From a virus, in IMG/VR virus record IMGVR_UViG_3300033273_000409, positions 1 through 60,780 of that record: a stretch of 60,780 nt of DNA. One strand, given 5' to 3'. The notes beneath the pieces are model-generated. The model did not search any database and was not told the origin of the DNA. It saw only the letters and a list, made by a program, of their open reading frames with translations. Shown here piece by piece: positions 11,364-24,244 of this stretch. Position 1 is the first letter of the stretch, and each line of letters starts with the position of its first letter. Made by a program: the position numbers and the translations under genes.

Positions 11364-11406
11364 GTGTCACACCCCCCTTGACGGATCCGTTGAGGGGGTT
11401 TATTAT
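11364..11406 (+). promoter_or_regulatory. Combined hairpin-promoter cassette 1
   Basis: GTGTCACA (11364-11371) is followed by TTGACG (11378-11383), 17 bases, and TATTAT (11401-11406). The -35 lies inside the left arm of the terminator hairpin at 11373-11398. The -10 directly abuts the next ATG, so the transcript would start inside that reading frame. Confidence 0.65.
11373..11404 (+). terminator. Terminator hairpin sharing bases with promoter
   Basis: CCCCC...GGGGG stem interrupted by two mismatches, with an ACG-GATC-CGT top and a TTTATTAT tail. It ends the 11116 gene while its left arm holds the -35 for the next gene. Confidence 0.65.
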
Positions 11407-11583
11407 ATGAAGGTTCAAACGACGGAGCACATGTACGACGATCTTCAATACGAGCAAGACGTTTTTGATAAGTCTTTCGAGATGGAAGACTTCGATCCTT
11501 TCGAGGATGACAATGACTATTGGTCTGTAGGAATCAAGGACAACATTGATCCTGAGACTATCAAGATGCTAAACAAGTTCTGA
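11407..11583 (+). CDS. Small acidic protein, 50-58 aa
   Basis: M-K-V-Q-T-T-E-H-M-Y-D-D opening, strongly acidic middle (E-M-E-D-F-D-P-F-E-D-D-N-D) and a short helical end. The cassette -10 ends at 11406, so mRNA from it would begin near 11413. The second Met at 11431, with GGAG three bases before it, is therefore the more likely start, giving 50 residues. Such acidic small proteins often bind host enzymes or mimic DNA, but nothing here proves that. Confidence 0.6.
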   Translation: MKVQTTEHMYDDLQYEQDVFDKSFEMEDFDPFEDDNDYWSVGIKDNIDPETIKMLNKF

Positions 11584-11626
11584 TGTATAGTAACACTGAT
11601 CGTCTTCTGTTTGTTGGTTCGTTCTT

Positions 11627-12109
11627 ATGGATGCTACATTGGTCGGCAAGAGTATTCTCTGCCCTAGTGGATATGGTTATCGCAAACGGGAGTGCGAGAG
11701 TGTTGTATCCTGGTTTGTAGAAACTTATCTACCAAACTATCAACTCACGATTGATGTTGTTCATCGTGGTCTGAAGAAAGAATCTGTGGTTGGGTATTGT
11801 TCTACCGAGGACATTCCATCACGTCCTAGAACTTTTCTGATTGAACTTCAGACTTATATGGACAAGACTCTATATCGTACAACTCTTTTACATGAACTCT
11901 GGCACATGTTTCAGATGGTCAAAGGTGATCTCAAGCACAAGAATGGACACAAATACTGGAAAAGTGAGACCATTGACCATCTAGAATACTGTGATGATCC
12001 TTCCGAATTGGAAGCATATCGCATGGAAGAATTTCTATTGGAAGAGTATCAAATGCGTTGGAAAACCGTGACATTCTTCCCTAATAGGTTGACAGATTAT
12101 TCTGTCTAG
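11627..12109 (+). CDS. SprT-like zinc metallopeptidase
   Basis: 160 residues. H89-E-L-W-H93 is a HExxH zinc site on a predicted helix (T-T-L-L-H-E-L-W-H-M-F). It is followed by a His-rich stretch (K-H-K-N-G-H-K-Y-W) and P-S-E-L-E-A-Y-R-M-E-E, where E129 could be a third ligand. SprT/Spartan-type proteins cut proteins trapped on DNA; a phage version could clear DNA-protein crosslinks or process a protein. It stands in front of a ParB-like gene and near a helicase, which favours a DNA-related role. The exact peptidase family is not settled by eye. Confidence 0.7.
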   Translation: MDATLVGKSILCPSGYGYRKRECESVVSWFVETYLPNYQLTIDVVHRGLKKESVVGYCSTEDIPSRPRTFLIELQTYMDKTLYRTTLLHELWHMFQMVKGDLKHKNGHKYWKSETIDHLEYCDDPSELEAYRMEEFLLEEYQMRWKTVTFFPNRLTDYSV

Positions 12110-12117
12110 TGTATACT
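12089..12117 (+). promoter_or_regulatory. Consensus sigma-70 promoter with operator-like dyad
   Basis: TTGACA (12089-12094), 17 bases, TATACT (12112-12117). GACAGA (12091-12096) and TCTGTC (12101-12106) form a perfect 6-bp dyad overlapping the -35 and spacer, with no U tract, so an operator is more likely than a terminator. The promoter overlaps the end of the metallopeptidase gene and serves ATG 12145. Confidence 0.8.
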
Positions 12118-12144
12118 AAACAAGTTGTTAGTTAGGACTTACTT

Positions 12145-13215
12145 ATGTCTCTCAACGACGCATTCAATACTGAATCGTTTGTGAATAGTTACTGGGCAAA
12201 GGATCATTGTGATCCTGCAGTCTGGGACTATGTTCCCTCCACTTATGGGGTGGAAGGTGCAGAACTGGTTGGTGAAAAGCACATGAAGTTTTTCTCTGAT
12301 CTTAACAACTCCTGGAAGAATCCTGGACGAGTTAGCACTGACCCCAAGCGTGTTAGAGAACTAGTTACCGAGATTGTAGAGAACGGTATCAAGACCCAAG
12401 GTAGCGTAATTTATTATGATGTTGACACACTTGATCGTGTCAATGGTACACACCGCACAGAAGTTGCTGCCGAATTAGGTATCGACGGATGGATGATGCA
12501 GGCAATTCGCTTTACTAGTGAGCGAGCAAAGATCGAGTTTGCCACTCTGTCTAATAACAGAAAAGATCTCCTGCACCTGAATACTTCACCAACAGATGTA
12601 TTCGAAGCAGTGTGGGCTTTGAATAATCTTGATGATAACTTTGATGAGCAGCAGGTAAAAGCAGACGTACTTCGTCTGGGTTGGCACCTCACCAAGAAGC
12701 AGAAAGAGAGGATTTTTGATAATCTGATCATGAAGTTTCGATTGAGTGGTGCTGCTCCTACCCGCAAGTATGCTGATTATAATACTAATCAGTTCCACTC
12801 TTTGATGGCAGAGATGTCACACAGAGACCTCAATCCTACCTGGGTTGATATGTGGGAAGACGAGGATTGCATGACGTTGTATATCAACGCTAAGCAGTTT
12901 GAGTCTCGCGTTGGTACTATCATCAATGCAAATGTGCAAGCAATCAAGGCAAACAAACCGCTGCACATTATCTACAGTGTGTCAATTCCTGAGGGTGAAA
13001 AGAATACCCTACAGACCAATCGATTGTCTTTCTGGACTACACAGATGGCATCGATTGAGACTCGCATGATGGAATCATGTGGTCTTCAGGGTGATATGCA
13101 CCGCCGAATCTTTGCTTGGAATGATCCAAGATGTGAGCATCGTGCGGTTGCTCAAGATAACATTCAGGAGGATCAGTTTGACCTTATCAAGGTAAGAAAC
13201 CGAGACTTCAACTGA
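12145..13215 (+). CDS. ParB/sulfiredoxin-like domain protein
   Basis: 356 residues. Residues about 65-120 resemble the ParB N-terminal fold: a helix V-R-E-L-V-T-E-I-V-E-N-G, a strand Q-G-S-V-I-Y-Y-D-V, then D-R-V-N-G-T-H-R-T-E-V-A-A-E-L-G-I, which fits the G-x-H-R nucleotide-binding motif (residues 101-104). The remaining 230 residues are mixed helical and unrecognised. ParB-like proteins include CTP-dependent partition factors and nucleases or modification enzymes. It has its own consensus promoter and ends just before a strong terminator, so it is a single-gene unit. A link with the array at 22.8-23.1 kb is only a speculation. Confidence 0.6.
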   Translation: MSLNDAFNTESFVNSYWAKDHCDPAVWDYVPSTYGVEGAELVGEKHMKFFSDLNNSWKNPGRVSTDPKRVRELVTEIVENGIKTQGSVIYYDVDTLDRVNGTHRTEVAAELGIDGWMMQAIRFTSERAKIEFATLSNNRKDLLHLNTSPTDVFEAVWALNNLDDNFDEQQVKADVLRLGWHLTKKQKERIFDNLIMKFRLSGAAPTRKYADYNTNQFHSLMAEMSHRDLNPTWVDMWEDEDCMTLYINAKQFESRVGTIINANVQAIKANKPLHIIYSVSIPEGEKNTLQTNRLSFWTTQMASIETRMMESCGLQGDMHRRIFAWNDPRCEHRAVAQDNIQEDQFDLIKVRNRDFN

Positions 13216-13230
13216 AGACAGTCAGTGAAC

Positions 13231-13272
13231 TGACACAGCCCCTTGACGGTTCGCCGTCAGGGGGTTTATACT
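13231..13272 (+). promoter_or_regulatory. Combined hairpin-promoter cassette 2
   Basis: TGACACA (13231-13237), TTGACG (13243-13248), 18 bases, TATACT (13267-13272). The -35 lies wholly inside the left arm of the 11-bp hairpin and the -10 starts in its T-rich tail. It would drive the helicase at 13296. Confidence 0.75.
13239..13267 (+). terminator. Strong terminator hairpin sharing bases with promoter
   Basis: CCCCTTGACGG (13239-13249), TTCG loop, CCGTCAGGGGG (13254-13264): 11 pairs with one T-G wobble, followed by TTT. It terminates the ParB-like gene. Confidence 0.8.
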
Positions 13273-13295
13273 ATATGCATTGAAGCGAAACCAAC

Positions 13296-14537
13296 TTGAC
13301 CATCACTCTCCTTCCCCACCAGCAACGTGCTCTCGATTCTATGAGCAGTGCTGCTAAGGGTCAAGTGCTTGTCCCCACAGGCGGTGGCAAGACCATGATC
13401 ATGATCCGTCACGCGCTGCGTATGCTCGCTGATGGTCCCCGTACCATTGTTGTTGTTGCTCCTCGCATCCTGCTCGCTAACCAACTATGCGAGGAGTTTA
13501 TGCAACAAATTGACAGTAAGTATGTTCATGTTGCTCACTGCCACAGCGGTGAGACTCACTACTTCAGCAGCACTAAGTCTGAGAAGATTGCTCTGTTCAA
13601 TGATGTTGCCCGTACTGCCGATGAGTCCTGCATTATCTTCACTACCTATCATTCACTACGTCGTGTTGTTGACTCTGGTATTGACATCGACGTGGCTTAC
13701 TTTGACGAAGCGCACAATGCTTGCTCTAAGCAATTCTTTGTTCCTGTTGCTGCTTGCTCTAATTTTGCAGATCGTTCATTCTTCTTTACTGCTACTCCAC
13801 GTCAATCACGTCGGCATGATCGTGGCATGAACAACACCATGGTGTTTGGTAATGTTATCTGCAATGTTCCTGCACCTGAACTGATCAACAACGGTAGCAT
13901 CATTCCTCCTGTTGTTGTTGGCATTGAGACCAATGTTGATCGCACTAAGGATAGTGCTGCTCAGATCGACGCTGATACCGTCTCTAACATCATTGATAAC
14001 CTTGATGATAGTCAGGCAGCAAAGGTGTTGGTTGCAGCACCTTCCAGTCGCGTCCTGGGGCGTATGCTGGGGCAGTCTGATATGATTCAGCAACTCAAAG
14101 ACCGTGATTATCACGTCCTACATATTACTAGTAAGTTCGGTGCATATGTTGATGATCGTAAGGTCAACCGTGAAGAGTTTTTCAACACTCTGACCACTTG
14201 GGGTAGTGATCCTTCTAAGAAGTTTGTAGTCTTCCACTATTCTATTCTGTCCGAAGGTATCAACGTCCCTGGGTTGACTCACTGTATCCTTCTTCGCAAC
14301 CTGAATGTTGTTGAGATGGCACAGACTATCGGTCGTGTGATTCGTATTGATCGCAACGATGCTGCTGACATTGCCTCTGGCAAACTTATCCCTGGTCAGT
14401 GTCAGTTCTACCGCAAGTCTTGTGGATTTGTTTCAGTTCCTGTCCACAACAACTACGGTGCTGCTACAATCAAACGCCTTCAGAATGTAGTTGACGCTAT
14501 CTTCGTGAAAGGTATTCCGCCCCTCGCACTGGTGTAA
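13296..14537 (+). CDS. SF2 DNA/RNA helicase (DEAH box)
   Basis: 413 residues with the full set of superfamily 2 motifs: Q-type opening L-L-P-H-Q-Q-R-A-L, Walker A V-P-T-G-G-G-K-T (26-33), D137-E-A-H140, F-T-A-T-P (about 163-167) and motif VI Q-T-I-G-R-V-I-R-I-D (about 341-350). The only suitable start is TTG at 13296, since an in-frame stop lies at 13281. It is shorter than T4 UvsW (503 aa) but could act similarly in fork regression, R-loop removal or recombination. It is transcribed from cassette 2 and uses more C-ending codons than the virion genes, suggesting efficient early translation. Confidence 0.88.
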   Translation: MTITLLPHQQRALDSMSSAAKGQVLVPTGGGKTMIMIRHALRMLADGPRTIVVVAPRILLANQLCEEFMQQIDSKYVHVAHCHSGETHYFSSTKSEKIALFNDVARTADESCIIFTTYHSLRRVVDSGIDIDVAYFDEAHNACSKQFFVPVAACSNFADRSFFFTATPRQSRRHDRGMNNTMVFGNVICNVPAPELINNGSIIPPVVVGIETNVDRTKDSAAQIDADTVSNIIDNLDDSQAAKVLVAAPSSRVLGRMLGQSDMIQQLKDRDYHVLHITSKFGAYVDDRKVNREEFFNTLTTWGSDPSKKFVVFHYSILSEGINVPGLTHCILLRNLNVVEMAQTIGRVIRIDRNDAADIASGKLIPGQCQFYRKSCGFVSVPVHNNYGAATIKRLQNVVDAIFVKGIPPLALV

Positions 14538-14538
14538 T

Positions 14539-14910
14539 ATGGGAATGTTCGATTACTTCAAATCATCATATGATTTGGGTCCACAGTTTACAAAAGTACC
14601 ATGCCAAACTAAAGACATTGAGGACACTGGTGGTGGCACCATGTCCTTTTATTGGTTAAATCCACATGGTCAGTTATTTCGTGTTTCATACGATGGGACA
14701 CAAGATTTTGAGGAAGTTCCTGAAGGAGAGAGGAAATATAAATGGCAAATTTATCGTCCTGTTGCTAATGGTCAAAAGGGTAGAGTTGTCGCTGAGATGA
14801 TCAGTAAGAGCATTGTAATTGTCCCTGCAATGTGTGTTGAGAGCAGTCTCCCTAAGTTGCTAATAGACTTCAAATATGGTAGAATAACAGGGCATGAGCG
14901 AATAGGATGA
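14539..14910 (+). CDS. Conserved-looking hypothetical protein, 123 aa
   Basis: Opens M-G-M-F-D-Y-F-K-S-S-Y-D-L-G and carries C-Q-T-K-D-I-E-D, a pattern I associate with small phage and cyanophage proteins of unknown function. Beta-rich, with no catalytic motif recognised. It starts one base after the helicase stop and its last bases overlap the next gene (ATGA), so it belongs to the helicase operon. Confidence 0.65.
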   Translation: MGMFDYFKSSYDLGPQFTKVPCQTKDIEDTGGGTMSFYWLNPHGQLFRVSYDGTQDFEEVPEGERKYKWQIYRPVANGQKGRVVAEMISKSIVIVPAMCVESSLPKLLIDFKYGRITGHERIG

Positions 14911-15155
14911 ACATTTACCATTGCCAAAAGATAGGTGACATTCACGTTGGGGATGTTGTCGAGTTCCTGGGATGTAGCAAGGAACAAATTAACTGGGGGA
15001 ACAATGATGATCCCTATATGTTAGAAAAAGGAAAATGCTACATCGTGGAGGAGGTCGAGGTCCATCGGTCCCACACGAAACTGAAATTGCAAGGAATTGA
15101 AGGAATGTTCAATAGTGTCTGTTTTATTGACATTGATGAACTATTAGATCTGTAA
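14907..15155 (+). CDS. Hypothetical protein, 82 aa, small beta-barrel type
   Basis: Overlaps the previous stop by four bases. The sequence (D-I-H-V-G-D-V-V-E-F-L-G, then G-K-C-Y-I-V-E-E-V-E-V and T-K-L-K-L-Q-G-I-E-G) suggests a KOW/SH3-like barrel as in small nucleic-acid or ribosome-associated proteins. The fold is inferred from strand spacing only. Confidence 0.6.
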   Translation: MNIYHCQKIGDIHVGDVVEFLGCSKEQINWGNNDDPYMLEKGKCYIVEEVEVHRSHTKLKLQGIEGMFNSVCFIDIDELLDL

Positions 15156-15170
15156 ACAGGAGACAAACTT

Positions 15171-15314
15171 ATGACTAAACGCGAATTTGTGGACTCTAAA
15201 GGTAACACTTGGGAGTGGGATGAGACCGATGAGGTAAGAAAGGCAGTCGAACGTCTGCACCAGACCATCCGCGACCTGGAGGCAAAAAACGCCGAGGACG
15301 GTGGTGACAAATGA
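15171..15314 (+). CDS. Small coiled-coil protein, 47 aa
   Basis: M-T-K-R-E-F-V-D-S-K-G-N-T-W-E-W-D opening, then a heptad-like helix (V-R-K-A-V-E-R-L-H-Q-T-I-R-D-L-E). AGGAGA lies 6 bases before the ATG. Its stop overlaps the next ATG (15311), so it is translationally coupled. Confidence 0.65.
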   Translation: MTKREFVDSKGNTWEWDETDEVRKAVERLHQTIRDLEAKNAEDGGDK

Positions 15315-15541
15315 AATTACTAACACTTGACGATTATATCAAAGCTGGTGAAACATTCTGGCCAAAGTATAATTATGTTGCCACTACACTTGGACCTGAT
15401 GCTAAACCAGAAGACATTCTGAAAGTAATGGAAGCAGTTGGTACTGTAGCACTCAAACTTGCACTCGAAGAAAAAGAAGGATCATTTGGATTTAACAAAC
15501 ATGACGGAAGAGACGAGGAAGAAGAAGAGAACTGTTCTTGA
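15311..15541 (+). CDS. Hypothetical protein, 76 aa
   Basis: Translationally coupled to the previous gene. Helical, with a very acidic tail (D-G-R-D-E-E-E-E-E-N). The tail lies over the start of the next gene in another frame. Function not recognised. Confidence 0.6.
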   Translation: MKLLTLDDYIKAGETFWPKYNYVATTLGPDAKPEDILKVMEAVGTVALKLALEEKEGSFGFNKHDGRDEEEEENCS

Positions 15542-15806
15542 TTCAATCAGTACTAACCCAACGATTGAGAAGGACATTCCTGAAGATCAGGTGTGGATTG
15601 ATGATGCTTTCTTTATCAAGAAGACACGCTTTGGTCTGTTTGTGAGTGTACTCAAAGAACCAATCTATGGGGCACAGTTTATCACTGGACCGACAGAAGA
15701 AGCAGTGTTACAAATTACACGTTGGCACCTCAAATGCTTGCAAGAAGGCTCACTTGATGAGTATACTAGGGTAGTAAATGATGGTTTTGTAGGCGGTAAA
15801 CTGTGA
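15501..15806 (+). CDS. Hypothetical protein, 101 aa
   Basis: A longer frame opens at 15459, but ATG 15501 (M-T-E-E-T-R-K-K-K-R) is preferred because the longer form would overlap its upstream neighbour by 83 bases. Middle: V-W-I-D-D-A-F-F-I-K-K-T-R-F-G-L-F-V-S-V-L, a beta hairpin, then a helix (E-E-A-V-L-Q-I-T-R-W-H-L-K-C-L). Unrecognised. It overlaps the next gene by four bases. Confidence 0.6.
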   Translation: MTEETRKKKRTVLDSISTNPTIEKDIPEDQVWIDDAFFIKKTRFGLFVSVLKEPIYGAQFITGPTEEAVLQITRWHLKCLQEGSLDEYTRVVNDGFVGGKL

Positions 15807-16330
15807 ACATCTTTGTATCTCATCCTGATCCATTTGTGTCAGCAAAGGTATTACCTGACAAGCACATTGTCAAGATGCCTTTAGAATGTTGTCAGATGTT
15901 GTCTATCATCTATAGCAAATGGTATTATGATTGGGGTCCACTACCCAAAAAAGATGGTGGTTATTATGCAACTACCAAGGGAGCATTTCGTAACCATCCA
16001 TGCACAATCTGGGCAGCACAGAATCACTACAATACTGCCTGGTTGATACAACACGGTCTCGCATTGTCTGCAGAGTATAAAGCACGGTACGATAAAGTAC
16101 ACTCATGCGCTGAGACATTGTGGGAGGCAAAAAAGATCTTCCATCGTAAGTCTGGCAAAGCAATTACATGCTACTGTATGGCAGATAACTTCGCTCGCGC
16201 TATGCCAGACAAGTTCAAATACGACACAAGCATAGATACTTTTACGGCATACAAAATGTATATTGCTAGTAAACCATGGGTATCTACCAATTACAATCGT
16301 ATACCAGAACGTAAACCAGAATGGATCTAA
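15803..16330 (+). CDS. Conserved phage protein with DKHxVKM signature
   Basis: 175 residues, GTG start overlapping the previous stop (GTGA). It opens M-N-I-F-V-S-H-P-D-P and contains D-K-H-I-V-K-M-P-L-E-C-C-Q-M-L, later F-R-N-H-P-C-T-I-W, N-T-A-W-L-I-Q-H-G and K-V-H-S-C. I recognise this as a family widespread in phages with conserved His, Cys and Trp residues that could form an active site, but with no function I can name with confidence. Confidence 0.65.
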   Translation: MNIFVSHPDPFVSAKVLPDKHIVKMPLECCQMLSIIYSKWYYDWGPLPKKDGGYYATTKGAFRNHPCTIWAAQNHYNTAWLIQHGLALSAEYKARYDKVHSCAETLWEAKKIFHRKSGKAITCYCMADNFARAMPDKFKYDTSIDTFTAYKMYIASKPWVSTNYNRIPERKPEWI

Positions 16331-16331
16331 C

Positions 16332-16508
16332 ATGTACGAAGAACAAGACTCTTACGATAAAGCAGTACAACTATTTGGCACCCGTGTCAGTATGATTTGT
16401 GCAATGGAATTGGCAAAGAAAATTGATGCTGAGACTGCATATTCCAATATCAAAGCAGAACTAAAAGCACTAAAAGCAGTGAGGAAAGAATGGAAGAAGG
16501 ACCAGTAA
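16332..16508 (+). CDS. Small helical protein, 58 aa
   Basis: Starts at ATG 16332 directly after the previous stop; the frame continues upstream but overlaps a real gene there. Mostly helix (I-K-A-E-L-K-A-L-K-A-V-R-K-E-W). Unrecognised. Overlaps the next gene by 19 bases. Confidence 0.55.
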   Translation: MYEEQDSYDKAVQLFGTRVSMICAMELAKKIDAETAYSNIKAELKALKAVRKEWKKDQ

Positions 16509-16678
16509 CATCTAAAGACTCTCTATCAGTTAATATTACTGAAGACGGCAAAGTTGAACTTGATTGGGATCCAAATGATCCACGTTGGTCATGGTTGAAT
16601 GACTTGACAAATGAAGAAGTTCAGGCTATACTAACCACAGCAATCGAACATGCTACCGAAAAGGATTGGAAACTATGA
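16490..16678 (+). CDS. Small acidic protein, 62 aa
   Basis: M-E-E-G-P-V-T-S-K-D opening, beta strands, then W-D-P-N-D-P-R-W-S-W-L and a C-terminal helix. Unrecognised. A consensus promoter for the following gene lies inside its 3' third. Confidence 0.55.
   Translation: MEEGPVTSKDSLSVNITEDGKVELDWDPNDPRWSWLNDLTNEEVQAILTTAIEHATEKDWKL
16604..16632 (+). promoter_or_regulatory. Consensus sigma-70 promoter inside a gene
   Basis: TTGACA (16604-16609), 17 bases, TATACT (16627-16632). It would give the gene at 16675 its own transcript. Confidence 0.65.
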
Positions 16679-17031: not shown

Positions 17032-17196
17032 ATGACACTTCCAAAGGACGGCAGAAAACTTGACCAGAATGAGATCGACAGCATCGAAAATGCTGTAAAA
17101 GAGGCAGGAATCCAGCAGATTCACCCCGATAAGATGGAAGCATTTGCTGAGGAATTGGTTAGGCGATGGCGCAACGGCAGTCCGTTGTCCGAATGA
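17032..17196 (+). CDS. Small helical protein, 54 aa
   Basis: ATG 17032 is chosen because the extended -10 at 17004 lies inside any longer frame. M-T-L-P-K-D-G-R-K-L-D-Q-N-E-I opening, two helices (I-E-N-A-V-K-E-A-G and A-F-A-E-E-L-V-R-R-W). Unrecognised. Followed by cassette 3. Confidence 0.6.
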   Translation: MTLPKDGRKLDQNEIDSIENAVKEAGIQQIHPDKMEAFAEELVRRWRNGSPLSE

Positions 17197-17200
17197 TGAA

Positions 17201-17243
17201 GTGTCACAGGGGTCTTGACAGACCCCTTTTTTTGTGCCATAAT
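17201..17243 (+). promoter_or_regulatory. Combined hairpin-promoter cassette 3
   Basis: GTGTCACA (17201-17208), consensus TTGACA (17215-17220), 17 bases, CATAAT (17238-17243). The TTGACA is exactly the six-base loop of the terminator hairpin. Transcription would start at about 17250, where the ATG lies, so the ligase-like mRNA may be leaderless. Confidence 0.75.
17208..17233 (+). terminator. Terminator hairpin whose loop is a -35 box
   Basis: AGGGGTC (17208-17214) pairs perfectly with GACCCCT (17221-17227), followed by seven Ts in all. Confidence 0.85.
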
Positions 17244-17249: not shown

Positions 17250-18134
17250 ATGAAAAACACCCACCTGCAACACCCCGAAGATACCATCCTCACGGGTGAT
17301 CTTTCGGTCATCAATCTTTTCTACAACTTCAACACTGCCAGCGTCAAGATTGACGGTGCTCCTGCTATTGTGTGGGGCACAGATCCTGCCACTGGTACTA
17401 AGTTTGTTGGCACTAAGTCTGTCTTCAATAAGAAGAAGATCAAGATTAATCACTCCCATGATGAGATTGACATCAATCATGATGGTAAGGTAGCAGATAT
17501 ACTCCACGCCTGTTTTGACCTCCTTCCTGAGCATCCTGGCATCATTCAGGGTGACTTTATTGGTTTCGGTGGTACTGATACTTTCCGTCCCAATACTATT
17601 ACATACAAGTTCAATCGTATGATCAATCACCTCAAGATTGTGATTGCACCTCATACGATGTATGCAACTGATGATGAGATGAAGGATGCCTATGTAATTC
17701 AAGAGGCAGACATGGAGATCTTTGAAGATACCGAAGACGTTGTATTTGTGCAACCAACTGTTGACTGGATCTCTGCTAATGTTGATGCTCCTATCATCAA
17801 CACTGACAATGTTCAGTTCATGACTGATGCTGAAGCAGCAGATGCTATCAAGAAGATCAATGCATGTATTCGTGACGGTCTTGATCTTACTGATGACCTG
17901 CTGTTTGACATCTTTGGTTGCATCTATCTGACCAATCTGTATCAAATGGTGATTGAGATGAAAGAGGACATTATGGACAATTTCATTCTCTACAACTGCC
18001 CCAAAGCATACATCGGTGAGAAACAAATCAATCAAGAAGGATTTGTCATCTCTGGTGATTGTGGTATGATGGTCAAGTTGGTTGATCGTCCTACCTTCGC
18101 ACATGCAAACTTTACTCTTCCTAAGACATGGTAA
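17250..18134 (+). CDS. Ligase-like nucleotidyltransferase
   Basis: 294 residues. Motif I is S-V-K33-I-D-G-A-P-A, with Lys33 as the expected AMP-accepting residue. G-D-F-I-G-F-G may be motif III, E263-G-F-V fits motif IV and M-V-K276-L-V fits motif V of the DNA/RNA ligase and capping superfamily. The central part is helical and unlike known ligases. It probably forms an enzyme-AMP intermediate and seals or modifies nucleic acid, but DNA versus RNA cannot be told. Start ATG 17250 is preferred over upstream Met codons, which lie in or before the terminator-promoter. Codons are C-rich like those of the helicase. Confidence 0.7.
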   Translation: MKNTHLQHPEDTILTGDLSVINLFYNFNTASVKIDGAPAIVWGTDPATGTKFVGTKSVFNKKKIKINHSHDEIDINHDGKVADILHACFDLLPEHPGIIQGDFIGFGGTDTFRPNTITYKFNRMINHLKIVIAPHTMYATDDEMKDAYVIQEADMEIFEDTEDVVFVQPTVDWISANVDAPIINTDNVQFMTDAEAADAIKKINACIRDGLDLTDDLLFDIFGCIYLTNLYQMVIEMKEDIMDNFILYNCPKAYIGEKQINQEGFVISGDCGMMVKLVDRPTFAHANFTLPKTW

Positions 18135-18557: not shown

Positions 18558-18684
18558 GAACCGTCTGAGGTATGCCTTTGACTTCCTGCTCAACCATGGT
18601 CCTGACTTCGTAGACTATCGCAAGTGCTATAATGCTATTGCTGAATGGTCTGACAAACTTGACACTTCTGAGGCACACTACTGA
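18520..18684 (+). CDS. Small helical protein, 54 aa
   Basis: AGGAGA (18511-18516) fixes ATG 18520. M-D-S-K-L-K-H-H-L-S-I-P-E-N-R-L-R-Y-A-F-D-F opening. The reading frame of the preceding gene runs over its first 38 bases. Unrecognised. Its stop overlaps the next ATG by one base. Confidence 0.6.
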   Translation: MDSKLKHHLSIPENRLRYAFDFLLNHGPDFVDYRKCYNAIAEWSDKLDTSEAHY

Positions 18685-18887: not shown

Positions 18888-19063
18888 CAGCAACTTATCA
18901 GATCTCAGTAACACTTGACGAGGGCACATTGTCATTTTTGAAGACAATGCCCACACGCCCTAAGACACAAAAAGGTATCAAGACACGCAACACCAGACTG
19001 GAGAATTATGCTATGAATCGCTATCCTAATTGGAAAGAAATCGACATCAAACTGCTGCCATGA
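18884..19063 (+). CDS. Small basic protein, 59 aa
   Basis: Overlaps the previous stop (ATGA). A beta opening (A-T-Y-Q-I-S-V-T-L) precedes a basic middle (R-P-K-T-Q-K-G-I-K-T-R-N-T-R). A nucleic-acid-binding role is possible. Unrecognised. Confidence 0.55.
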   Translation: MTATYQISVTLDEGTLSFLKTMPTRPKTQKGIKTRNTRLENYAMNRYPNWKEIDIKLLP

Positions 19064-19191
19064 TTACTGAAGCAACACCACAAGATTGGGAAGACTTTTG
19101 GTATTCCCCAGAAAAGTTCGGGACGTGGTATCCTGAAGACTTCTACAATTCTGAATCTGAAGGACGCGAATTTAAGGACAATGAGCAATGA
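19060..19191 (+). CDS. Small acidic aromatic protein, 43 aa
   Basis: Overlaps the previous stop (ATGA). Rich in W, F, Y, D and E (W-E-D-F-W-Y-S-P-E-K-F-G-T-W-Y). Unrecognised, but tight coupling to both neighbours supports it as a gene. Confidence 0.5.
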   Translation: MITEATPQDWEDFWYSPEKFGTWYPEDFYNSESEGREFKDNEQ

Positions 19192-19468
19192 ATTACCAAC
19201 CTCCTTTCCTCACACGCCACCAAGCAATTACAGATATGAGCGTGTTCGCAAAACGTCTACTATTGATGCAATTTGGATTGTATCTAATCATCTTTTCCTT
19301 TACAGTGGGGCTAGTGCTCGTAGTATCTGGGGATTCTACAATCACAGAAAAGATCAATACTTCTCGCCCATCAATTCAAAGCGAGTCGGTGAAACGGTAG
19401 ACGTGAGCACCACCAGTCCCTGGACTGCTATGCCACTTCTCAAACTGGCACTGGACTCCACCGACTGA
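19181..19468 (+). CDS. Conserved-looking hypothetical protein, 95 aa
   Basis: Overlaps the previous gene by eleven bases. The core (A-I-W-I-V-S-N-H-L-F-L-Y-S-G, W-G-F-Y-N, Y-F-S-P-I-N-S, T-T-S-P-W-T-A-M-P) matches a pattern I associate with small cyanophage proteins of unknown role. A competing frame (19188-19400) with a hydrophobic stretch was judged less likely. Confidence 0.6.
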   Translation: MSNELPTSFPHTPPSNYRYERVRKTSTIDAIWIVSNHLFLYSGASARSIWGFYNHRKDQYFSPINSKRVGETVDVSTTSPWTAMPLLKLALDSTD

Positions 19469-19481
19469 CTCCATTTCACCC

Positions 19482-19506
19482 TATAATAACTTCAGTTCAA
19501 ACAAAG
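19482..19506 (+). promoter_or_regulatory. -10 box and repeated leader, copy A
   Basis: TATAAT (19482-19487) is followed by a leader, AACTTCAGTTCAAACAAAG, that recurs with one change after the -10 at 20421. No convincing -35, so an activator or non-host sigma is possible. Confidence 0.55.
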
Positions 19507-19513
19507 GCACTCC

Positions 19514-19942
19514 ATGGGCACTCGCTCCCTGATCGGCAAGCAACTCAACGATGGTAGCATCCTGGGCGTCTACTGCCACTATGATGGCTATCCTGAGTTC
19601 AATGGTCGCATCCTGCGTGACAACTTCGACACCGAAGATAAAGTTAACAAACTGATCGATGGTGGTGATATGTCCTGCACCTGGACTAATGCAGGTTGGA
19701 ATAATGAAACCCTGCCCGAAACTGGTCCTCTTTACTACACCATGCGTGGTGAATCTCTGGAGAACAATGCTCCTCAACTCTACAAAGATTTGAATGAGTT
19801 CCTCTGTGGTGCTGACGATTGTGGTGCAGAATATACCTATCACTTCGTTGATGGTGAGTGGACCTGCCACGATGTGCGTCCTAATCCTTACCTTCCTCAC
19901 AATGTGATGGAAGTGCCTATCCCTGCTGGTCCAGTTGCCTAA
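19514..19942 (+). CDS. MGTRSLIG-type conserved hypothetical protein
   Basis: 142 residues opening M-G-T-R-S-L-I-G and containing Y-C-H-Y-D-G-Y-P-E-F-N-G, a signature shared by a family spread through phages and bacteria. The conserved Y-C-H-x-D-G-Y segment could be functional. Strongly C-ending codons, with its own -10/leader upstream and cassette 4 downstream, mark it as a separately controlled and probably well-expressed gene. Biochemical role unknown to me. Confidence 0.7.
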   Translation: MGTRSLIGKQLNDGSILGVYCHYDGYPEFNGRILRDNFDTEDKVNKLIDGGDMSCTWTNAGWNNETLPETGPLYYTMRGESLENNAPQLYKDLNEFLCGADDCGAEYTYHFVDGEWTCHDVRPNPYLPHNVMEVPIPAGPVA

Positions 19943-19985
19943 GTGGCACAGGGGCGCTTGTAGCGCCCTCTCCATGCCCTATAAT
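19943..19985 (+). promoter_or_regulatory. Combined hairpin-promoter cassette 4
   Basis: GTGGCACA (19943-19950), hairpin GGGCGCT-TGT-AGCGCCC (19952-19968), -35 TTGTAG (19958-19963) inside it, 16 bases, TATAAT (19980-19985). It would serve ATG 20007. CCAGTTG just upstream is shared with the elements at 23614 and 24188. Confidence 0.7.
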
Positions 19986-20006
19986 TACTACATCAGCAAA
20001 CGACCC

Positions 20007-20246
20007 ATGCGACTCCACACCTCTGCCACACAGATCGACTTCTATCCCATTGGTACTGGCAAGCGTTTCGTCAAGCGTGTCATCTGGCATCCTGGTGATG
20101 AGCAGACTGAGATGACCTCATTCTCCACCCGTAGCAAGACCGACATGGTGTATGATGTGAACTGCTACCTTGCTAACGGTGCTACTATCAGTGACTTTAA
20201 CACTGAAGAATACACTGGCACTGATTACTCTCCCGTCTACTGCTGA
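20007..20246 (+). CDS. Hypothetical protein, 79 aa
   Basis: ATG 20007 lies 21 bases after the -10; the upstream extension of the frame covers the promoter. Beta-rich (Q-I-D-F-Y-P-I-G-T-G-K-R-F-V-K-R-V-I-W). Unrecognised. C-rich codons. Confidence 0.6.
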   Translation: MRLHTSATQIDFYPIGTGKRFVKRVIWHPGDEQTEMTSFSTRSKTDMVYDVNCYLANGATISDFNTEEYTGTDYSPVYC

Positions 20247-20248
20247 TC

Positions 20249-20413
20249 ATGGATTTTTCTCTGACTTTTGAACAACTCATCGAACAAATGTGTGAAGACC
20301 CTATGTTCATCAAACAATGCGAGGAGAACAATCGTATGTGGGATGAGGAGGCAGCAGCAGAGCTGGAGGTGACAGTCGATGAACTGCACCACATGCTCGG
20401 CATCGGTGCCTGA
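20249..20413 (+). CDS. Small acidic helical protein, 54 aa
   Basis: Starts two bases after the previous stop: M-D-F-S-L-T-F-E-Q-L-I-E-Q-M-C. It ends with a helix-turn-helix-like stretch (A-A-A-E-L-E-V-T-V-D-E-L-H-H-M-L-G-I), which could be a small DNA-binding motif. Function inferred only from pattern. Confidence 0.55.
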   Translation: MDFSLTFEQLIEQMCEDPMFIKQCEENNRMWDEEAAAELEVTVDELHHMLGIGA

Positions 20414-20420
20414 TCTACCC

Positions 20421-20445
20421 TATACTAACTTTAGTTCAAACAAAG
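20421..20445 (+). promoter_or_regulatory. -10 box and repeated leader, copy B
   Basis: TATACT (20421-20426) plus AACTTTAGTTCAAACAAAG, nearly identical to the leader at 19488. ACCC precedes the -10 in both copies; no clear -35. Confidence 0.55.
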
Positions 20446-20447
20446 AC

Positions 20448-20849
20448 ATGACCACCGCTTCCTTCGCTGACTTCTGTGCCACCGCTGACGCCCGCAACAC
20501 CATTGAGTTGAACATCCGCAAGTATTGCCTGATGCTGTGTGATGCTCTCGTGGACAACTTCAAGTCCCGTAACCATGGCAAGGTTGGTCGTTATGATGCC
20601 CCCGTCTACCAGTTCGTGATTGAGACTGGTCGCAAGTATCACAAGATCATCATGGTTATTCCCAACGATGGTCGCCCTGATTCTCGCTCTGTCCATGCAT
20701 TTGTGGACAAGAAGACTGGTGAAGTTTACAAACCTGCTTCTTTCAAAGCACCTGCTAAGGGTGTTCGTTACAATCTGCTGCTGATCAAAGATCGTGAATG
20801 GTTGTTAGAAAATGCTGATTGGGCTGGTGGTTATTTGTATGTCCGATGA
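20448..20849 (+). CDS. Conserved phage protein, 133 aa
   Basis: ATG 20448 directly follows the repeated leader. The second half (S-V-H-A-F-V-D-K-K-T-G-E-V-Y-K-P-A-S-F-K-A-P-A-K) matches a family of small phage proteins I recognise without a known function. The first half is helical. C-rich codons and a private promoter suggest strong early expression. It overlaps the next gene by eleven bases. Confidence 0.7.
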   Translation: MTTASFADFCATADARNTIELNIRKYCLMLCDALVDNFKSRNHGKVGRYDAPVYQFVIETGRKYHKIIMVIPNDGRPDSRSVHAFVDKKTGEVYKPASFKAPAKGVRYNLLLIKDREWLLENADWAGGYLYVR

Positions 20850-20979
20850 GTTGAAACCACCAGTTCCTAATTTGATCATGTTAGGTGTCCTGTTACTTTG
20901 TACCATTGGTATCATTGTTGCGGGATACTTTCATGGCAAAATGCATTTGCTCACCGTATTAAAGAACGCTGTTTCATGA
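20839..20979 (+). CDS. Small single-pass membrane protein, 46 aa
   Basis: M-S-D-E-L-K-P-P-V-P-N then a hydrophobic segment of about 20 residues (positions 11-30: L-I-M-L-G-V-L-L-L-C-T-I-G-I-I-V-A-G) and a short basic tail. Probably inserts in the host inner membrane. Overlaps both neighbours. A holin or superinfection-exclusion role is possible, but nothing specific supports it. Confidence 0.6.
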   Translation: MSDELKPPVPNLIMLGVLLLCTIGIIVAGYFHGKMHLLTVLKNAVS

Positions 20980-21134
20980 ATCTGAATTTGCAAGAAATCG
21001 ACCATTTGATCACTGCACTGCAACATATGTCATCACATGATGTTGCAAGAGCGAGAGAGATGATTACACCTGGTGTGACAAATCACAATGAGTTGATTCA
21101 AAAACTGAAAGACTATCGGATGAGATTGACATGA
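20976..21134 (+). CDS. Small helical protein, 52 aa
   Basis: ATGA overlap with the membrane protein. M-N-L-N-L-Q-E-I-D-H-L-I-T-A-L-Q-H-M opening, two helices. It resembles its neighbour at 21131 in the E-x-x-x-I-x-x-A-L start, hinting at a local family of similar small proteins. Confidence 0.6.
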   Translation: MNLNLQEIDHLITALQHMSSHDVARAREMITPGVTNHNELIQKLKDYRMRLT

Positions 21135-21313
21135 ACTTTGAACTTGACATGGAGGATTTCACGATTATTCTCAACGCGCTTCATTACTATAAGAAAGTAG
21201 AGAAGCGAGGAGAGTTTGAGAATTACACGGACGAGCGAATCAATGCAGTCCGTGATAAACTGGTAGAGCAAATGGCACCCACTCCAAAATATGACTTCAC
21301 GCGGAAAGTATAG
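21131..21313 (+). CDS. Small helical protein, 60 aa
   Basis: ATGA overlap with the previous gene. M-N-F-E-L-D-M-E-D-F-T-I-I-L-N-A-L-H-Y-Y, then charged helices. Its 3' end (F-T-R-K-V) comes from the first copy of a 16-base repeat described at 21295. Confidence 0.6.
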   Translation: MNFELDMEDFTIILNALHYYKKVEKRGEFENYTDERINAVRDKLVEQMAPTPKYDFTRKV

Positions 21314-21458
21314 TGTAAGAGGACCAGATTCACGCGGAAAGTATGCAATCATCTGGTTTCCTTCCAACTCATCCACACCAAGAGTTGTAGCAAAGTTCTC
21401 TGATGAATTTACTGCACATCGACATAAACGAGCCCTTGTCAAGTTCACCATCTCATAG
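21291..21458 (+). CDS. Small basic protein with repeated SRGKY, 55 aa
   Basis: Overlaps the previous gene by 23 bases in another frame. S-R-G-K-Y occurs at residues 3-7 and 14-18 from an exact 16-base direct repeat. The rest is beta then a basic helix (T-A-H-R-H-K-R-A-L-V-K). The -35 and spacer of the next promoter lie in its last 8 codons. Confidence 0.5.
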   Translation: MTSRGKYSVRGPDSRGKYAIIWFPSNSSTPRVVAKFSDEFTAHRHKRALVKFTIS

Positions 21459-21464
21459 TATAAT
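21436..21464 (+). promoter_or_regulatory. Sigma-70 promoter
   Basis: TTGTCA (21436-21441), 17 bases, TATAAT (21459-21464). It directly abuts an ATG at 21465, so the mRNA begins inside that frame. Confidence 0.7.
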
Positions 21465-21488
21465 ATGACCATCGATCATTCTTCTTTC

Positions 21489-21743
21489 ATGAACGTCTAC
21501 CCGCCCGACTTTTACGAACAAGTAGTACAAAGCATGCCGAAGATTGATCACAAAGTAGCAGAGTCTACCACAAAACAAACTCAAAGTGATGTGTTAGATC
21601 TGTCTCTACGACAGTTGGAATATCTTTCCATTCTGGTAAGGGGAAATGAATATGAACAGTATTTGATGAGTCATATTAATAGTGTAAAGGTCGAACTTCA
21701 GCGTCAGTACAATGTCATCAACAACATCAATGCTTATGTCTGA
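21489..21743 (+). CDS. Hypothetical protein, 84 aa
   Basis: The frame opens at ATG 21465, which touches the -10; the expected transcript start near 21471 makes the next Met at 21489 (M-N-V-Y-P-P-D-F-Y) the probable start. The C-terminal half is helical (L-R-Q-L-E-Y-L-S-I-L-V and Y-L-M-S-H-I-N-S-V-K-V-E-L-Q). Unrecognised. Confidence 0.6.
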   Translation: MNVYPPDFYEQVVQSMPKIDHKVAESTTKQTQSDVLDLSLRQLEYLSILVRGNEYEQYLMSHINSVKVELQRQYNVINNINAYV

Positions 21744-22080
21744 AGTTCCTCCTCTCAAAACATTAGTCCAATATAAAGAACATATTGGGCACATTGCATT
21801 TTATATGCCCCCCACTCATGATTCCCTAAATTATTATGAGGGGTGTATTACTATCGCAATTCCCCCATCTTACGTCCGTATTGTCGTCCCACCCTCTGAT
21901 TATTCTCTCATTCAACCTATAACTTTCATGGATAAGACCGTCTCCCTCACTCACGCTGAAATTGATATTCTCATTCAATGCATGTATCATATGAAGGATA
22001 CTCTCAAAGACATGACTGATATTGAAGATGACAAGAAAGACATACTCGCGTCGTGTTATCAAAAGTTAGTCAATGCATGA
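21736..22080 (+). CDS. Hypothetical protein, 114 aa
   Basis: Overlaps the previous gene by eight bases. Beta-rich N-terminal two thirds (I-G-H-I-A-F-Y-M-P-P, C-I-T-I-A-I-P-P-S-Y-V-R-I-V-V-P-P) and a C-terminal helix close to that of its upstream neighbour (H-A-E-I-D-I-L-I-Q-C-M-Y-H-M). Unrecognised. Confidence 0.6.
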   Translation: MSEVPPLKTLVQYKEHIGHIAFYMPPTHDSLNYYEGCITIAIPPSYVRIVVPPSDYSLIQPITFMDKTVSLTHAEIDILIQCMYHMKDTLKDMTDIEDDKKDILASCYQKLVNA

Positions 22081-22276
22081 AAAGTACGAAGAACTACTCA
22101 CACGGTATACAAGAGAAGGATTACCTGAACAAGATGAATTAGTTGAATTGTTTCAATACTTGTTAGACACTGATAAAATAAAAGAAATGTCTCCACGTAT
22201 GCAACAGTATGCTAATTACTTACTGATGGAAGGTTTCCTATACAACGTACACACAGGAGAGAATGAGGAGTCTTAG
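22073..22276 (+). CDS. Small helical protein, 67 aa
   Basis: Overlaps the previous gene by eight bases. M-H-E-K-Y-E-E-L-L-T-R-Y opening, all-helical pattern, acidic end. Last gene of the plus-strand run before the origin-like region; a terminator hairpin overlaps its final codons. Confidence 0.6.
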   Translation: MHEKYEELLTRYTREGLPEQDELVELFQYLLDTDKIKEMSPRMQQYANYLLMEGFLYNVHTGENEES

Positions 22277-22292
22277 TTACTCCTCTTTTTTT
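22265..22292 (+). terminator. Terminator between converging genes
   Basis: GAGGAGT-CTTAGTT-ACTCCTC followed by seven Ts. The stem starts inside the last codons of the plus-strand gene. The minus-strand gene ends at 22300, so the hairpin may serve both directions. Confidence 0.85.
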
Positions 22293-22299
22293 GTATTGA

Positions 22300-22542
22300 T
22301 TACTCCGTTTTTCTTGTACCCAACCCAGTCTCTCTTGCTTTATTCAATCTCCACCAATCTTCTGCTGTCTCATGTGATTCAAAGTATTTTACTTTTCCGT
22401 GCCAGAATAAAGTAAACTTATCAAGTAATGACTCATATGATATCATTGGAGCTTCCTCTGATTCATATACAATGTCATTCTCATAGCAATCATGGATGAA
22501 TTTTTCCATATCTGCCTTTTCTTCTTCAATCCATCTGTCCAT
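22300..22542 (-). CDS. Hypothetical protein, 80 aa, only minus-strand gene
   Basis: M-D-R-W-I-E-E-E-K-A-D-M-E-K-F-I-H-D-C-Y-E-N-D opening, then S-Y-E-S-L-L-D-K-F-T-L-F-W-H-G-K-V-K-Y-F and A-E-D-W-W-R-L-N-K-A-R. Composition is protein-like and there is no competing plus-strand frame. A longer start at 22608 would add a hydrophobic leader (I-H-I-L-L-Y-I-F-L-F) but reaches into the DnaA-box palindrome, so 22542 is preferred. Its promoter must lie in the origin-like region, which thus sits between divergent genes. Confidence 0.65.
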   Translation of the reverse strand: MDRWIEEEKADMEKFIHDCYENDIVYESEEAPMISYESLLDKFTLFWHGKVKYFESHETAEDWWRLNKARETGLGTRKTE

Positions 22543-22600
22543 AGTAGTAAGTGCGGAGAATAAAAAAATGTATAATAAAATATGTATGTGTTGTTTATAG

Positions 22601-22654
22601 TTTTCCACAAGGATGTGGAAAAAGTGTTATAAACTGGGGAAAACATGTGGAATA
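22601..22654. promoter_or_regulatory. Left DnaA-box cluster
   Basis: TTTTCCACA-AGGA-TGTGGAAAA is a perfect 9-bp palindrome (22601-22622), followed by TGTGGAATA (22646-22654). It overlaps the probable promoter region of the minus-strand gene. Confidence 0.65.
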
Positions 22655-22762
22655 TGATCTTTTGTAATCTTATGTCTTCTTATGTCTTCTTATGCCAAAT
22701 CTTATAGTCATCTTAGCGTGCATGTTAACACAAAACTCCGAAAATGTCAAGACCTCAAAAAT

Positions 22763-23059
22763 CTAGTCTAGGGGTTGACAAAAATCTCGACTAGGGTTAT
22801 AATAACTCTACTAGATTCAACTAGATTTCATATAATCTCGACTAGATCATATATCTCTACTAGATCTCTACTAGACCCTTCTAGAATCGTCTATAACACG
22901 TCTAGAACTAGATCTCTACTAGATCTACTAGATTCTTCGTAATTCATAACTAGATGCACTAGATCATGTACACATATACGTACTAGATCATAACTAGATC
23001 ATGCGTGTATATGTGTACTAGATGAGCGAGAATGCGTGTACTAGATGTACGTGTACTAG
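22763..23059. repeat. CTAG array: 20 copies, 13 within ACTAGAT
   Basis: CTAG starts at 22763, 22768, 22791, 22811, 22821, 22842, 22860, 22871, 22881, 22902, 22908, 22919, 22928, 22950, 22959, 22983, 22994, 23018, 23041 and 23056. Thirteen are in ACTAGAT, most often preceded by T or A, with longer versions TCTCTACTAGAT and TCTCGACTAG. Eleven of 19 spacings are within about 1.5 bp of one or two helical turns (9-11 or 20-22), so a bound protein would sit repeatedly on one face. No protein frame runs through it, and it is not a CRISPR: there are no constant spacers or long repeats. Confidence 0.85.
22775..22803 (+). promoter_or_regulatory. Perfect consensus promoter firing into the CTAG array
   Basis: TTGACA (22775-22780), exactly 17 bases, TATAAT (22798-22803). 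The transcript would start near 22810 and run through the array with no gene for over 500 bases. A CTAG lies in its spacer and two just before the -35, so array-binding protein could repress it. Confidence 0.8.
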
Positions 23060-23155
23060 ACGCACATACGCTCACCCCACTCACCCCTACCCACACCATT
23101 TGTGCGTGTTATGTGTTATAATGTGTGTGTATGTGTTAGGTATAGTGGGGGCACG

Positions 23156-23239
23156 TATTCCACAGATATTCTGTCTCAAGGGGGGAAAAACGATGAAATT
23201 TGTATAGTTTTCCACAAATATTTGAGAATCTGTGGAAAA
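23156..23239. promoter_or_regulatory. Right DnaA-box cluster
   Basis: TATTCCACA (23156-23164), TTTTCCACA (23208-23216) and TGTGGAAAA (23231-23239); the last two form a 9-bp inverted pair around 14 bases. A further dyad, ATCACGT/ACGTGAT, lies at 23265-23285. Confidence 0.65.
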
Positions 23240-23374
23240 CGTTTGTTTTGCTAATATTATTGATATCACGTGTACACTACGTGATCAAGTACTGTTGTGA
23301 CAGTTTCTGAACTGTCCACTAATTGCCCCATTCGTCCTCGGATGGGGTATTATAATATCAATCGCAACCACTTC

Positions 23375-23575
23375 ATGGCAGATCGTATCATTGATCGTGA
23401 TTCTCTGCAGGAAAATTACATCGAAGCAATCATCGATGGAATGGATCACAAGTCCTTGTGGGCGTTCGTTTATGATAACCTGAACGATCATTTGGATAAG
23501 TATAGTGTCAATGAGTTGATTCAGGAAGTTGAAGAGTATTATCCTGAACTTCTTGAAGAAAGTGAGGCTAACTGA
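23375..23575 (+). CDS. Small acidic protein, 66 aa
   Basis: M-A-D-R-I-I-D-R-D-S-L-Q-E-N-Y opening. Start at 23375 because a CCCCAT/ATGGGG hairpin (about 23326-23347) and TATAAT (23351-23356) lie in the longer frame. Helical and acidic (L-I-Q-E-V-E-E-Y-Y-P-E-L-L-E-E). First plus-strand gene after the origin-like region; unrecognised. Confidence 0.6.
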   Translation: MADRIIDRDSLQENYIEAIIDGMDHKSLWAFVYDNLNDHLDKYSVNELIQEVEEYYPELLEESEAN

Positions 23576-23613
23576 ATCAGTGAGTTATTAACACTAACTG
23601 GGGCAGCTGCTCG

Positions 23614-23669
23614 ACCAGTTGACAAGGTGGACTAGGGGGGGTTGATTCTCCCCCGATCCCGTGTATTGT
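23614..23669 (+). promoter_or_regulatory. Combined hairpin-promoter cassette 5
   Basis: ACCAGTTGACAAGGTGG (23614-23630) is identical to 24188-24204. Then a GGGGG/CCCCC hairpin (23636-23654) with TTGATT (23642-23647) in its loop, 16 bases and TATTGT (23664-23669). It precedes the gene at 23698. Confidence 0.6.
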
Positions 23670-23697
23670 ACCTTTGTCATTCGGAACCAACACTTTT

Positions 23698-23862
23698 ATG
23701 ATGGACCAACTCGAAATGTTATCCCAACGTGAACAACTCATGTGGGATATTGATGGAATTGTTGAAGAGTTTGCCTGCAACAATAACATCAGCGAAGATG
23801 ACATGGAAGATCTAATTCGTGTCCTTTGTGATTCCGTCTGCAAAAACTTTCCTGCTAACTGA
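23698..23862 (+). CDS. Small acidic helical protein, 54 aa
   Basis: Two adjacent Met codons (23698, 23701) open M-M-D-Q-L-E-M-L-S-Q-R-E-Q-L. All-helical with a calcium-loop-like but unproven acidic stretch (N-N-I-S-E-D-D-M-E-D-L). Unrecognised. Four bases before the next gene. Confidence 0.55.
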   Translation: MMDQLEMLSQREQLMWDIDGIVEEFACNNNISEDDMEDLIRVLCDSVCKNFPAN

Positions 23863-23866
23863 AACC

Positions 23867-24070
23867 ATGCTATTCCAAGTCACACAGATTGAGTTCGACT
23901 TTGAAGATTCTGCGTCCTATGATAAGGAACCAGGATATTTTCAGAGTATTATTGATGAAACATTAGAAGGAGTTTGGGAGGCAGAGGATGGTGATGATCT
24001 CATCGAAGAGATAACATGCGCCACAGGATGGTGTGTAAAATCTATAGATTATCGTCACGTCCTTAAATGA
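23867..24070 (+). CDS. Conserved cyanophage small protein, copy 2
   Basis: 67 residues, M-L-F-Q-V-T-Q-I-E-F-D-F opening, W-E-A-E-D-G-D-D-L-I-E-E-I-T core and S-I-D-Y-R-H-V-L-K end: paralogue of the protein at 18684. Position relative to the origin-like region differs (one copy each side). Followed by a different small gene than copy 1, so it was not a simple operon duplication. Confidence 0.75.
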   Translation: MLFQVTQIEFDFEDSASYDKEPGYFQSIIDETLEGVWEAEDGDDLIEEITCATGWCVKSIDYRHVLK

Positions 24071-24219
24071 ACATGAACACCGAACCTTGCCGCTATTGTG
24101 GTGGAAACTGTCCCCAAGATGAAGAATATGCTTGCGACGGATACTTAGGGGACATTGATGAACTCTACTCTTCTGAGGGGTCGCCCAACCAGTTGACAAG
24201 GTGGCACACAACCCCTTGA
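24067..24219 (+). CDS. Small Cys-rich (zinc-ribbon-like) protein, 50 aa
   Basis: ATGA overlap with the previous gene. Residues 8-23 hold four cysteines (P-C-R-Y-C-G-G-N-C, then Y-A-C-D-G), followed by G-D-I-D-E-L-Y. A zinc site is plausible. Its last ten codons overlie the repeat ACCAGTTGACAAGGTGG and the promoter for the next gene. Confidence 0.6.
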   Translation: MNMNTEPCRYCGGNCPQDEEYACDGYLGDIDELYSSEGSPNQLTRWHTTP

Positions 24220-24244
24220 TTTTTGCCCGATTCTGTGCCATGAT
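24188..24244 (+). promoter_or_regulatory. Promoter element, cassette 6
   Basis: Repeat (24188-24204), GTGGCACA (24201-24208), TTGATT (24216-24221), 17 bases, CATGAT (24239-24244). TGGCACA (24202-24208) and TGTGCCA (24234-24240) are exact inverted copies around the -35. Confidence 0.55.

Follow-up and report, generated by a model that had tools for sequence, protein, structure and literature searches.

Can the terminator of one phage gene and the promoter of the next be built from the same bases, and which part of such a unit stays constant? The question is raised by an IMG/VR virus record (IMGVR_UViG_3300033273_000409), analysed here as one stretch of 60,780 bases, the window. A first-pass annotation of the window had marked five hairpins between genes, at 11373, 13239, 17208, 19952 and 23636, each with the -35 hexamer of the next gene inside its stem or loop. 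In this study, we found that the constant feature is a palindrome together with a 34-nt distance to the -10 hexamer, and not the embedded -35. Hairpins fill the -35 slot above chance, and a good -35 is optional. We read the elements as composite promoter-terminator cassettes of the promoter-early stem-loop (PeSL) type, with a fixed operator frame and with bases shared by terminator and promoter, and give this reading a probability of roughly 70%.

Upstream of the orthologous genes in relatives, one and the same palindrome precedes the hairpin. Its consensus is GTGnCAGTTn4AACTGnCAC, typically followed by 34 nt and then by a sigma70-type -10. The dyad pattern occurred in 297 copies in 1.57 Mb of relatives versus 17 after shuffling, and it showed no excess in other T4-like phages (1 versus 1.7 shuffled). 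Among 225 non-redundant copies, a near-consensus -10 lay 28-30 nt past the final CAC in 27, 28 and 55 copies, and in about 1 at distances elsewhere. From the last base of the conserved ACTG to the start of the -10, the distance was 34 nt in 89 of 170 copies and 33-35 nt in 146 of them, and the gap inside the dyad was 5 or 6 in 167. When the -10 hexamer is taken as -12 to -7, the dyad centre falls arithmetically at about -53. This rigid phasing points to recognition at the DNA level. The palindrome could instead fold in the RNA, as a hairpin that forms the 3' end of the upstream transcript, or provide mere homology for recombination. In favour of this, the palindrome is able to pair in RNA and frequently overlaps a stop codon that is in place, and two module-swap boundaries are marked by cassettes. 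However, neither role would lead one to expect a fixed 34-nt phasing to the -10, which is also kept in units that have no hairpin, and this explanation is unlikely. Literature searches turned up no account of the palindrome, a weak sign that none exists. Kyanoviridae appear to mark each cassette with this newly seen palindrome 34 nt ahead of the -10.

The palindrome, a putative operator, was then scored with a matrix trained on relatives, with the window and all reference genomes held out. At a score of at least 16, the window gave 16 raw matches versus 0.1 when shuffled. It holds 14 distinct operator-promoter units, all on the + strand between 11.35 and 25.52 kb and including all five reported sites; three of the 14 score 11.5-14.6. 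The gap is exactly 34 in most units, the five reported sites included, and a slot hairpin scoring at least 14 is present in 8 of the 14. As for the held-out genomes, 99 units were found in seven of eight Kyanoviridae, 6-22 in each (at most 0.4 when shuffled): 15 in S-SZBM1, 8 in Syn9, 20 in S-PM2, 17 in S-RSM4, 22 in S-T4, 6 in S-SM2 and 11 in S-BM3. The units are clustered, at 44.8-53.0 kb in Syn9, 2-21.5 kb in S-PM2, 5.5-15.4 kb in S-BM3 and 0.8-14.2 kb in S-SZBM1. The same scan gave 0 units in S-H38, RB49, T4, Phi1 and KVP40. Slot hairpins scoring at least 16 occurred in 20% of the 99 held-out units versus 5% by chance, those scoring at least 19 in 14% versus 1%, and a good -35 (at least 5/6) in 16% versus 1%. 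Most of these units have only one of a strong hairpin and a good -35, or neither.

All five reported hairpins exist. Their components are as follows.

11348..11371, + strand: operator palindrome CAGTcctgatAGTG of site 1, matrix score 28, -10 34 nt downstream
11373..11398, + strand: terminator-like hairpin of site 1, RNA fold -19.1 kcal/mol, then TTTATTAT
11401..11406, + strand: -10 TATTAT of site 1 (sequence)
13214..13237, + strand: operator palindrome of site 2, matrix score 30, gap 34
13237..13266, + strand: hairpin of site 2, RNA fold -23.7 kcal/mol, z -6
13267..13272, + strand: -10 TATACT of site 2, upstream of the helicase gene 13296-14537
17185..17208, + strand: operator of site 3, matrix score 13
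17208..17227, + strand: hairpin of site 3, -13.3 kcal/mol, then TTTTTTT
17238..17243, + strand: -10 CATAAT of site 3, upstream of gene 17250-18134
19927..19950, + strand: operator of site 4, matrix score 38, gap 34
19951..19969, + strand: hairpin of site 4 by RNA fold, stem co-varying in relatives
19980..19985, + strand: -10 TATAAT of site 4 (sequence)
23611..23634, + strand: weak operator of site 5, matrix score 12, gap 34
23635..23654, + strand: hairpin of site 5 by RNA fold, with TTGATT in the loop
23664..23669, + strand: -10 TATTGT of site 5 (sequence)

The reported combination was confirmed at the first three sites, where a stable hairpin with a T-rich tail carries the -35 in its stem or loop, the -10 follows after 17-18 nt and the promoter scores 10-11 of 12; sites 4 and 5 are weaker. 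At site 1, TTGACG (11378-11383) lies within the 5' arm, 17 nt ahead of TATTAT, and the following gene likely starts at the ATG at 11431, which is preceded by GGAG. At site 2, TTGACG (13243-13248) is likewise within the 5' arm, with a spacer of 18 nt. At site 3, TTGACA (17215-17220) stands 17 nt from CATAAT. It had been described as precisely the loop, which holds with one nuance: the outer T and A of the hexamer pair with each other in the fold and leave TGAC as the actual loop, and TTGACA thus comprises the loop and the pair that closes it. The left half of the site 3 operator is degenerate in the window and intact in relatives (L130-L132), and the gene behind it is, by a family match, a putative DUF6267 gene. 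At site 4, TTGTAG agrees with TTGACA at only 3/6 positions and no U-run follows. Site 5 has 4/6 agreement for both TTGATT and TATTGT, no U-run, and a hairpin of ordinary stability for its composition (z -1.2).

We next consider how often hairpins lie on the -35, with intergenic regions called by simple stop-codon rules. In the window, 4 of 42 sigma70-like promoters had a strong hairpin centred on the -35, versus an expectation of 0.3 with the hexamers kept and the flanks shuffled, or 0.7 under uniform placement (p = 0.005). Eight reference Kyanoviridae (cyanomyoviruses) gave 40 of 815 promoters, versus 6.7 with shuffled flanks and 13.1 under uniform placement (p = 2e-9). KVP40 had 6 such promoters and RB49 had 2, versus 0.5 and 0.9 when the flanks were shuffled around fixed hexamers. 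Cyanomyovirus hairpins on the -35 also had a higher T content in the 8 nt downstream, with a mean of 3.73 versus 2.45 for other hairpins. These statistics exclude that the hairpins occur at promoters only as often as chance predicts, and the composites, looked for in other cyanophage genomes, recur there above expectation. Simple crowding, with short intergenic regions holding a terminator and a promoter independently and overlapping by accident, would agree with the shortness of these regions and with 24 non-redundant hairpins found 20-30 nt upstream of a -35. However, the offset histogram peaks sharply on the -35: of the non-redundant intergenic hairpin-promoter pairs in all cyanophage DNA examined, 52 fell at offsets 0 and +5 (35 and 17), versus 1-11 in each remaining 5-nt bin. 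RB49 promoters, which use the same hexamers, lack this peak and have theirs at the spacer and at the -10, and keeping the hexamers while shuffling the flanks leaves the 6.7 given above against 40. Crowding is, on these data, highly improbable. The proposal that terminator and promoter share bases as a compact unit is supported for sites 1-3 and extends to other cyanophages.

The embedded -35 itself did not hold up as the defining feature. Among 172 non-redundant palindrome promoters, a -35 of at least 4/6 was present in only 30% (10% when shuffled), and it was missing from 54 of the 71 that bear a hairpin. In nine relatives of site 4, 98.4% of the cells of the 7-bp stem were paired, and 4/7 pairs showed double changes; the covariation score was reached by 0/500 column shuffles, in a small alignment in which kinship among the sequences inflates such comparisons. 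Meanwhile the loop hexamer drifts from the -35 (CTGAAA, CTCAGG, CTTAGA). The embedded -35 was rejected as a defining trait because the hexamer is not conserved where the stem is. Stems kept where the -35 hexamer is not could also mean that the hairpin is a protein-binding inverted repeat in DNA, or a cruciform, that controls the promoter and is no terminator; many slot hairpins indeed lack a U-run (sites 4 and 5 and the unit at 23296..23356). Yet the stems vary widely between cassettes with compensatory change, which fits one DNA-binding protein poorly, and long U-runs follow at site 3, in relative L004, at 60.0 kb in S-RSM4 and at 131.7 kb in S-RIM32. We consider such a DNA element quite unlikely. 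We found no evidence for the suggested control of promoter strength by cruciforms or RNA folding; a hairpin formed in the RNA of the upstream gene would be expected to terminate that transcript, without changing how strong the downstream promoter is.

PeSLs are said to be promoter-early stem-loop cassettes of T4-like phages, going back to Arbiol 2010. The cassettes of the window were compared directly with the sequences of RB49, Phi1 and KVP40. Since these phages carry such composites, the kind is a known one. As in PeSLs, a sigma70-type promoter and a stem-loop are combined in one short intergenic element, many copies lie among small variable genes, and gene modules are exchanged at the elements. 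In the window, a sigma70-like promoter lies in the intergenic element at sites 1-3 and a weaker one at sites 4-5; a stem-loop able to terminate intrinsically, as judged by sequence, is present at sites 1-3 and not at 4-5; the small-gene region holds 14 units; and module swap boundaries fall at the element at 11363 and 13216, with others elsewhere. By their predicted architecture, the cassettes are PeSL-type composite promoter-terminators, a kind already described for T4-like phages. Cyanomyoviruses and KVP40 place the hairpin on the -35; the KVP40 copies, AAAGGG[TTGACA]..GTCAGCCCTTT..TATTAT, have the -35 in the 5' arm, as at window sites 1-2. In contrast, the RB49 and Phi1 hairpins either occupy the spacer, as in [TTGACA]GGGGATC..GATCCCC[TATACT], or surround the -10, as in GGGAGTAG[TAAGAT]ACTCCC. 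RB49, T4, Phi1 and KVP40 all lack the operator. Cyanophage stems are highly variable and their -35 is optional. According to PMC1524935, the early promoters of RB49 agree with mapped 5' ends.

Other systems are alike in part. T4 middle promoters also have a -10 without a good -35 and are aided by an upstream protein site. The MotA box TGCTTtA, however, lies 11-13 nt ahead of the -10 (PMC1524935), far closer than the cyanophage palindrome, a comparison that draws on that paper and on general knowledge. The HGTV-1 halovirus has an intergenic promoter with an inverted repeat that has been likened to PeSLs (PMC3950731), but its promoters are of the archaeal TATA type and no shared sequence is claimed.

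The exchange of modules was examined against two relatives (L002 and L003). The window is 90-95% identical to them in the stretches that begin at 11363 (cassette 1) and at 13216 (cassette 2), behind upstream genes that differ. The second swap has its left edge at 12098, within another promoter (12089-12117). This promoter and one at 4373-4402 have a hairpin within the -35/-10 spacer (TTGACAGATTATTCTGTC..TATACT and TTGACACGCCACCCAAAGGCGTGgTATACT), a layout typical of RB49 PeSLs and unlike the other cassettes of this phage.

Taken as PeSL-type cassettes in an operator frame, the elements might work as follows. The RNA hairpin with its T-rich tail would end the upstream transcript, which is best supported at sites 1-3, and the -10 would start the next one through a sigma70-type polymerase of the host. 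The slot between operator and -10 is filled by a variable G/C hairpin, a -35, both (the -35 in the loop or 5' arm), or neither. The phasing suggests that a dimeric regulator at the palindrome, centred at about -53, helps or replaces a missing or buried -35. Terminator and promoter likely travel in one mobile cassette with a putative regulator at the palindrome, and cassette homology may let phages swap gene modules. More tentatively, and at somewhat less than even odds, we propose a previously undescribed Kyanoviridae promoter class, in which a phage-specific regulator on the palindrome frees the -35 slot for the terminator of the preceding gene. As speculation, a polymerase might stay bound to the DNA once it has terminated and initiate again at the adjoining promoter. 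A terminator near a promoter could feed released bacterial RNA polymerase to the next start (PMC11347151), although that is a general property of the bacterial enzyme and not a cassette.

One well-conserved form of the motif had no match in 84,980 prokaryote genomes (257 Gb) and occurred in 63 stretches in IMG/VR, which favours a phage factor without proving it. In the 18.7 Mb of seven Synechococcus/Cyanobium genomes there were 2 looser matches. A host regulator using the same sites is disfavoured by the prokaryote-genome scan; a host factor could still act through looser sites. The DUF7717/phrog_818 gene (20448-20849 in the window) is present in all seven operator-bearing reference genomes and absent from S-H38, and in many loci examined it stands nearly always directly behind an operator cassette. 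In many relatives DUF7717 genes follow cassettes like site 4; another gene follows site 4 in the window. DUF7717 as the regulator found no support, as a confident model (predicted local distance difference test, pLDDT, 91) had no match among solved structures below E = 0.2.

Several points weigh against the reading as PeSL-type cassettes in an operator frame. Sites 4 and 5 lack U-runs, and termination there is therefore doubtful. Module boundaries also fall at gene ends without cassettes (14540, 15306 and 18510), and the idea that they lie solely at cassettes was rejected. The loci used to train the matrix were collected in the neighbourhood of window genes, and redundancy among them was removed only at 70% identity. 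S-H38 has -35 hairpins and no operator, and the two features are therefore separable.

The S-H38 genome (L070-L078) contains hairpin-on-35 composites without the operator, such as GACCCC[TTGACA]GGGGTC at 47840, and is a natural case in which to tell the two features apart. The timing and insulation of the many small early genes of T4-like cyanophages are poorly known. In seven reference phages, a rigid cassette recognisable by sequence predicts about 100 starts of transcription, with matching terminators at a subset. The palindrome could serve as bait for finding the regulator, and the cassette would be a concrete route for gene shuffling.

The closest annotated relatives of the window are Synechococcus T4-like myoviruses, and its source is probably a T4-like cyanomyovirus, a virus of ocean cyanobacteria, with the sites in a small-gene, probably early region. 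The small genes that bear cassettes are on the + strand, between the tail fibre gene and later large open reading frames. In an Rfam scan, two tRNAs were the only matches. The tail fibre gene, the remaining units and a sixth example of the hairpin are listed here.

4885-11085: tail fibre gene, 2,066 aa
18437..18496, + strand: operator-promoter unit, slot hairpin CCTGCTCAGCAGG, matrix score 21
19429..19487, + strand: operator-promoter unit, TATAAT at 19482, matrix score 27
20368..20426, + strand: operator-promoter unit upstream of the DUF7717 gene 20448-20849, matrix score 30
23296..23356, + strand: operator unit, hairpin 23324-23349 without any -35, TATAAT at 23351, matrix score 31
24185..24244, + strand: operator unit without hairpin (TTGATT, CATGAT), matrix score 17
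24414..24472, + strand: operator unit, slot without hairpin (TTGACT, AATCAT), matrix score 27
24760..24818, + strand: operator unit, slot hairpin ACCCCTCCACGGGGT, matrix score 15
25207..25266, + strand: operator unit (TATGAT), matrix score 22
25506..25564, + strand: operator unit (TTGACC, TATCCT), matrix score 21
26223..26246, + strand: sixth example, hairpin with TTGACC as loop and TACAAT downstream, without operator

S-PM2 is said to have few PeSLs in PMC4503421, a passage of which cites the PeSL work on T4-like phages. The 20 operator units of S-PM2 bear on that statement, which may merit another look. The stem-loop at 11369-11391 listed in that paper sits in the slot of one operator unit. 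Twelve units lie in or around the S-PM2 ORFanage (2-21.5 kb, L050-L051), a region that the same paper names and for which few PeSLs had been reported.

The window also has a long CTAG-rich tract with ACTAGAT repeats at 22764-23060, which contains a perfect TTGACA-17-TATAAT promoter at 22775. On either side of the tract lie TTTTCCACA / TGTGGAAAA repeats (at about 22600-22655 and 23205-23240), and from its sequence the tract looks like an origin or a regulatory region.

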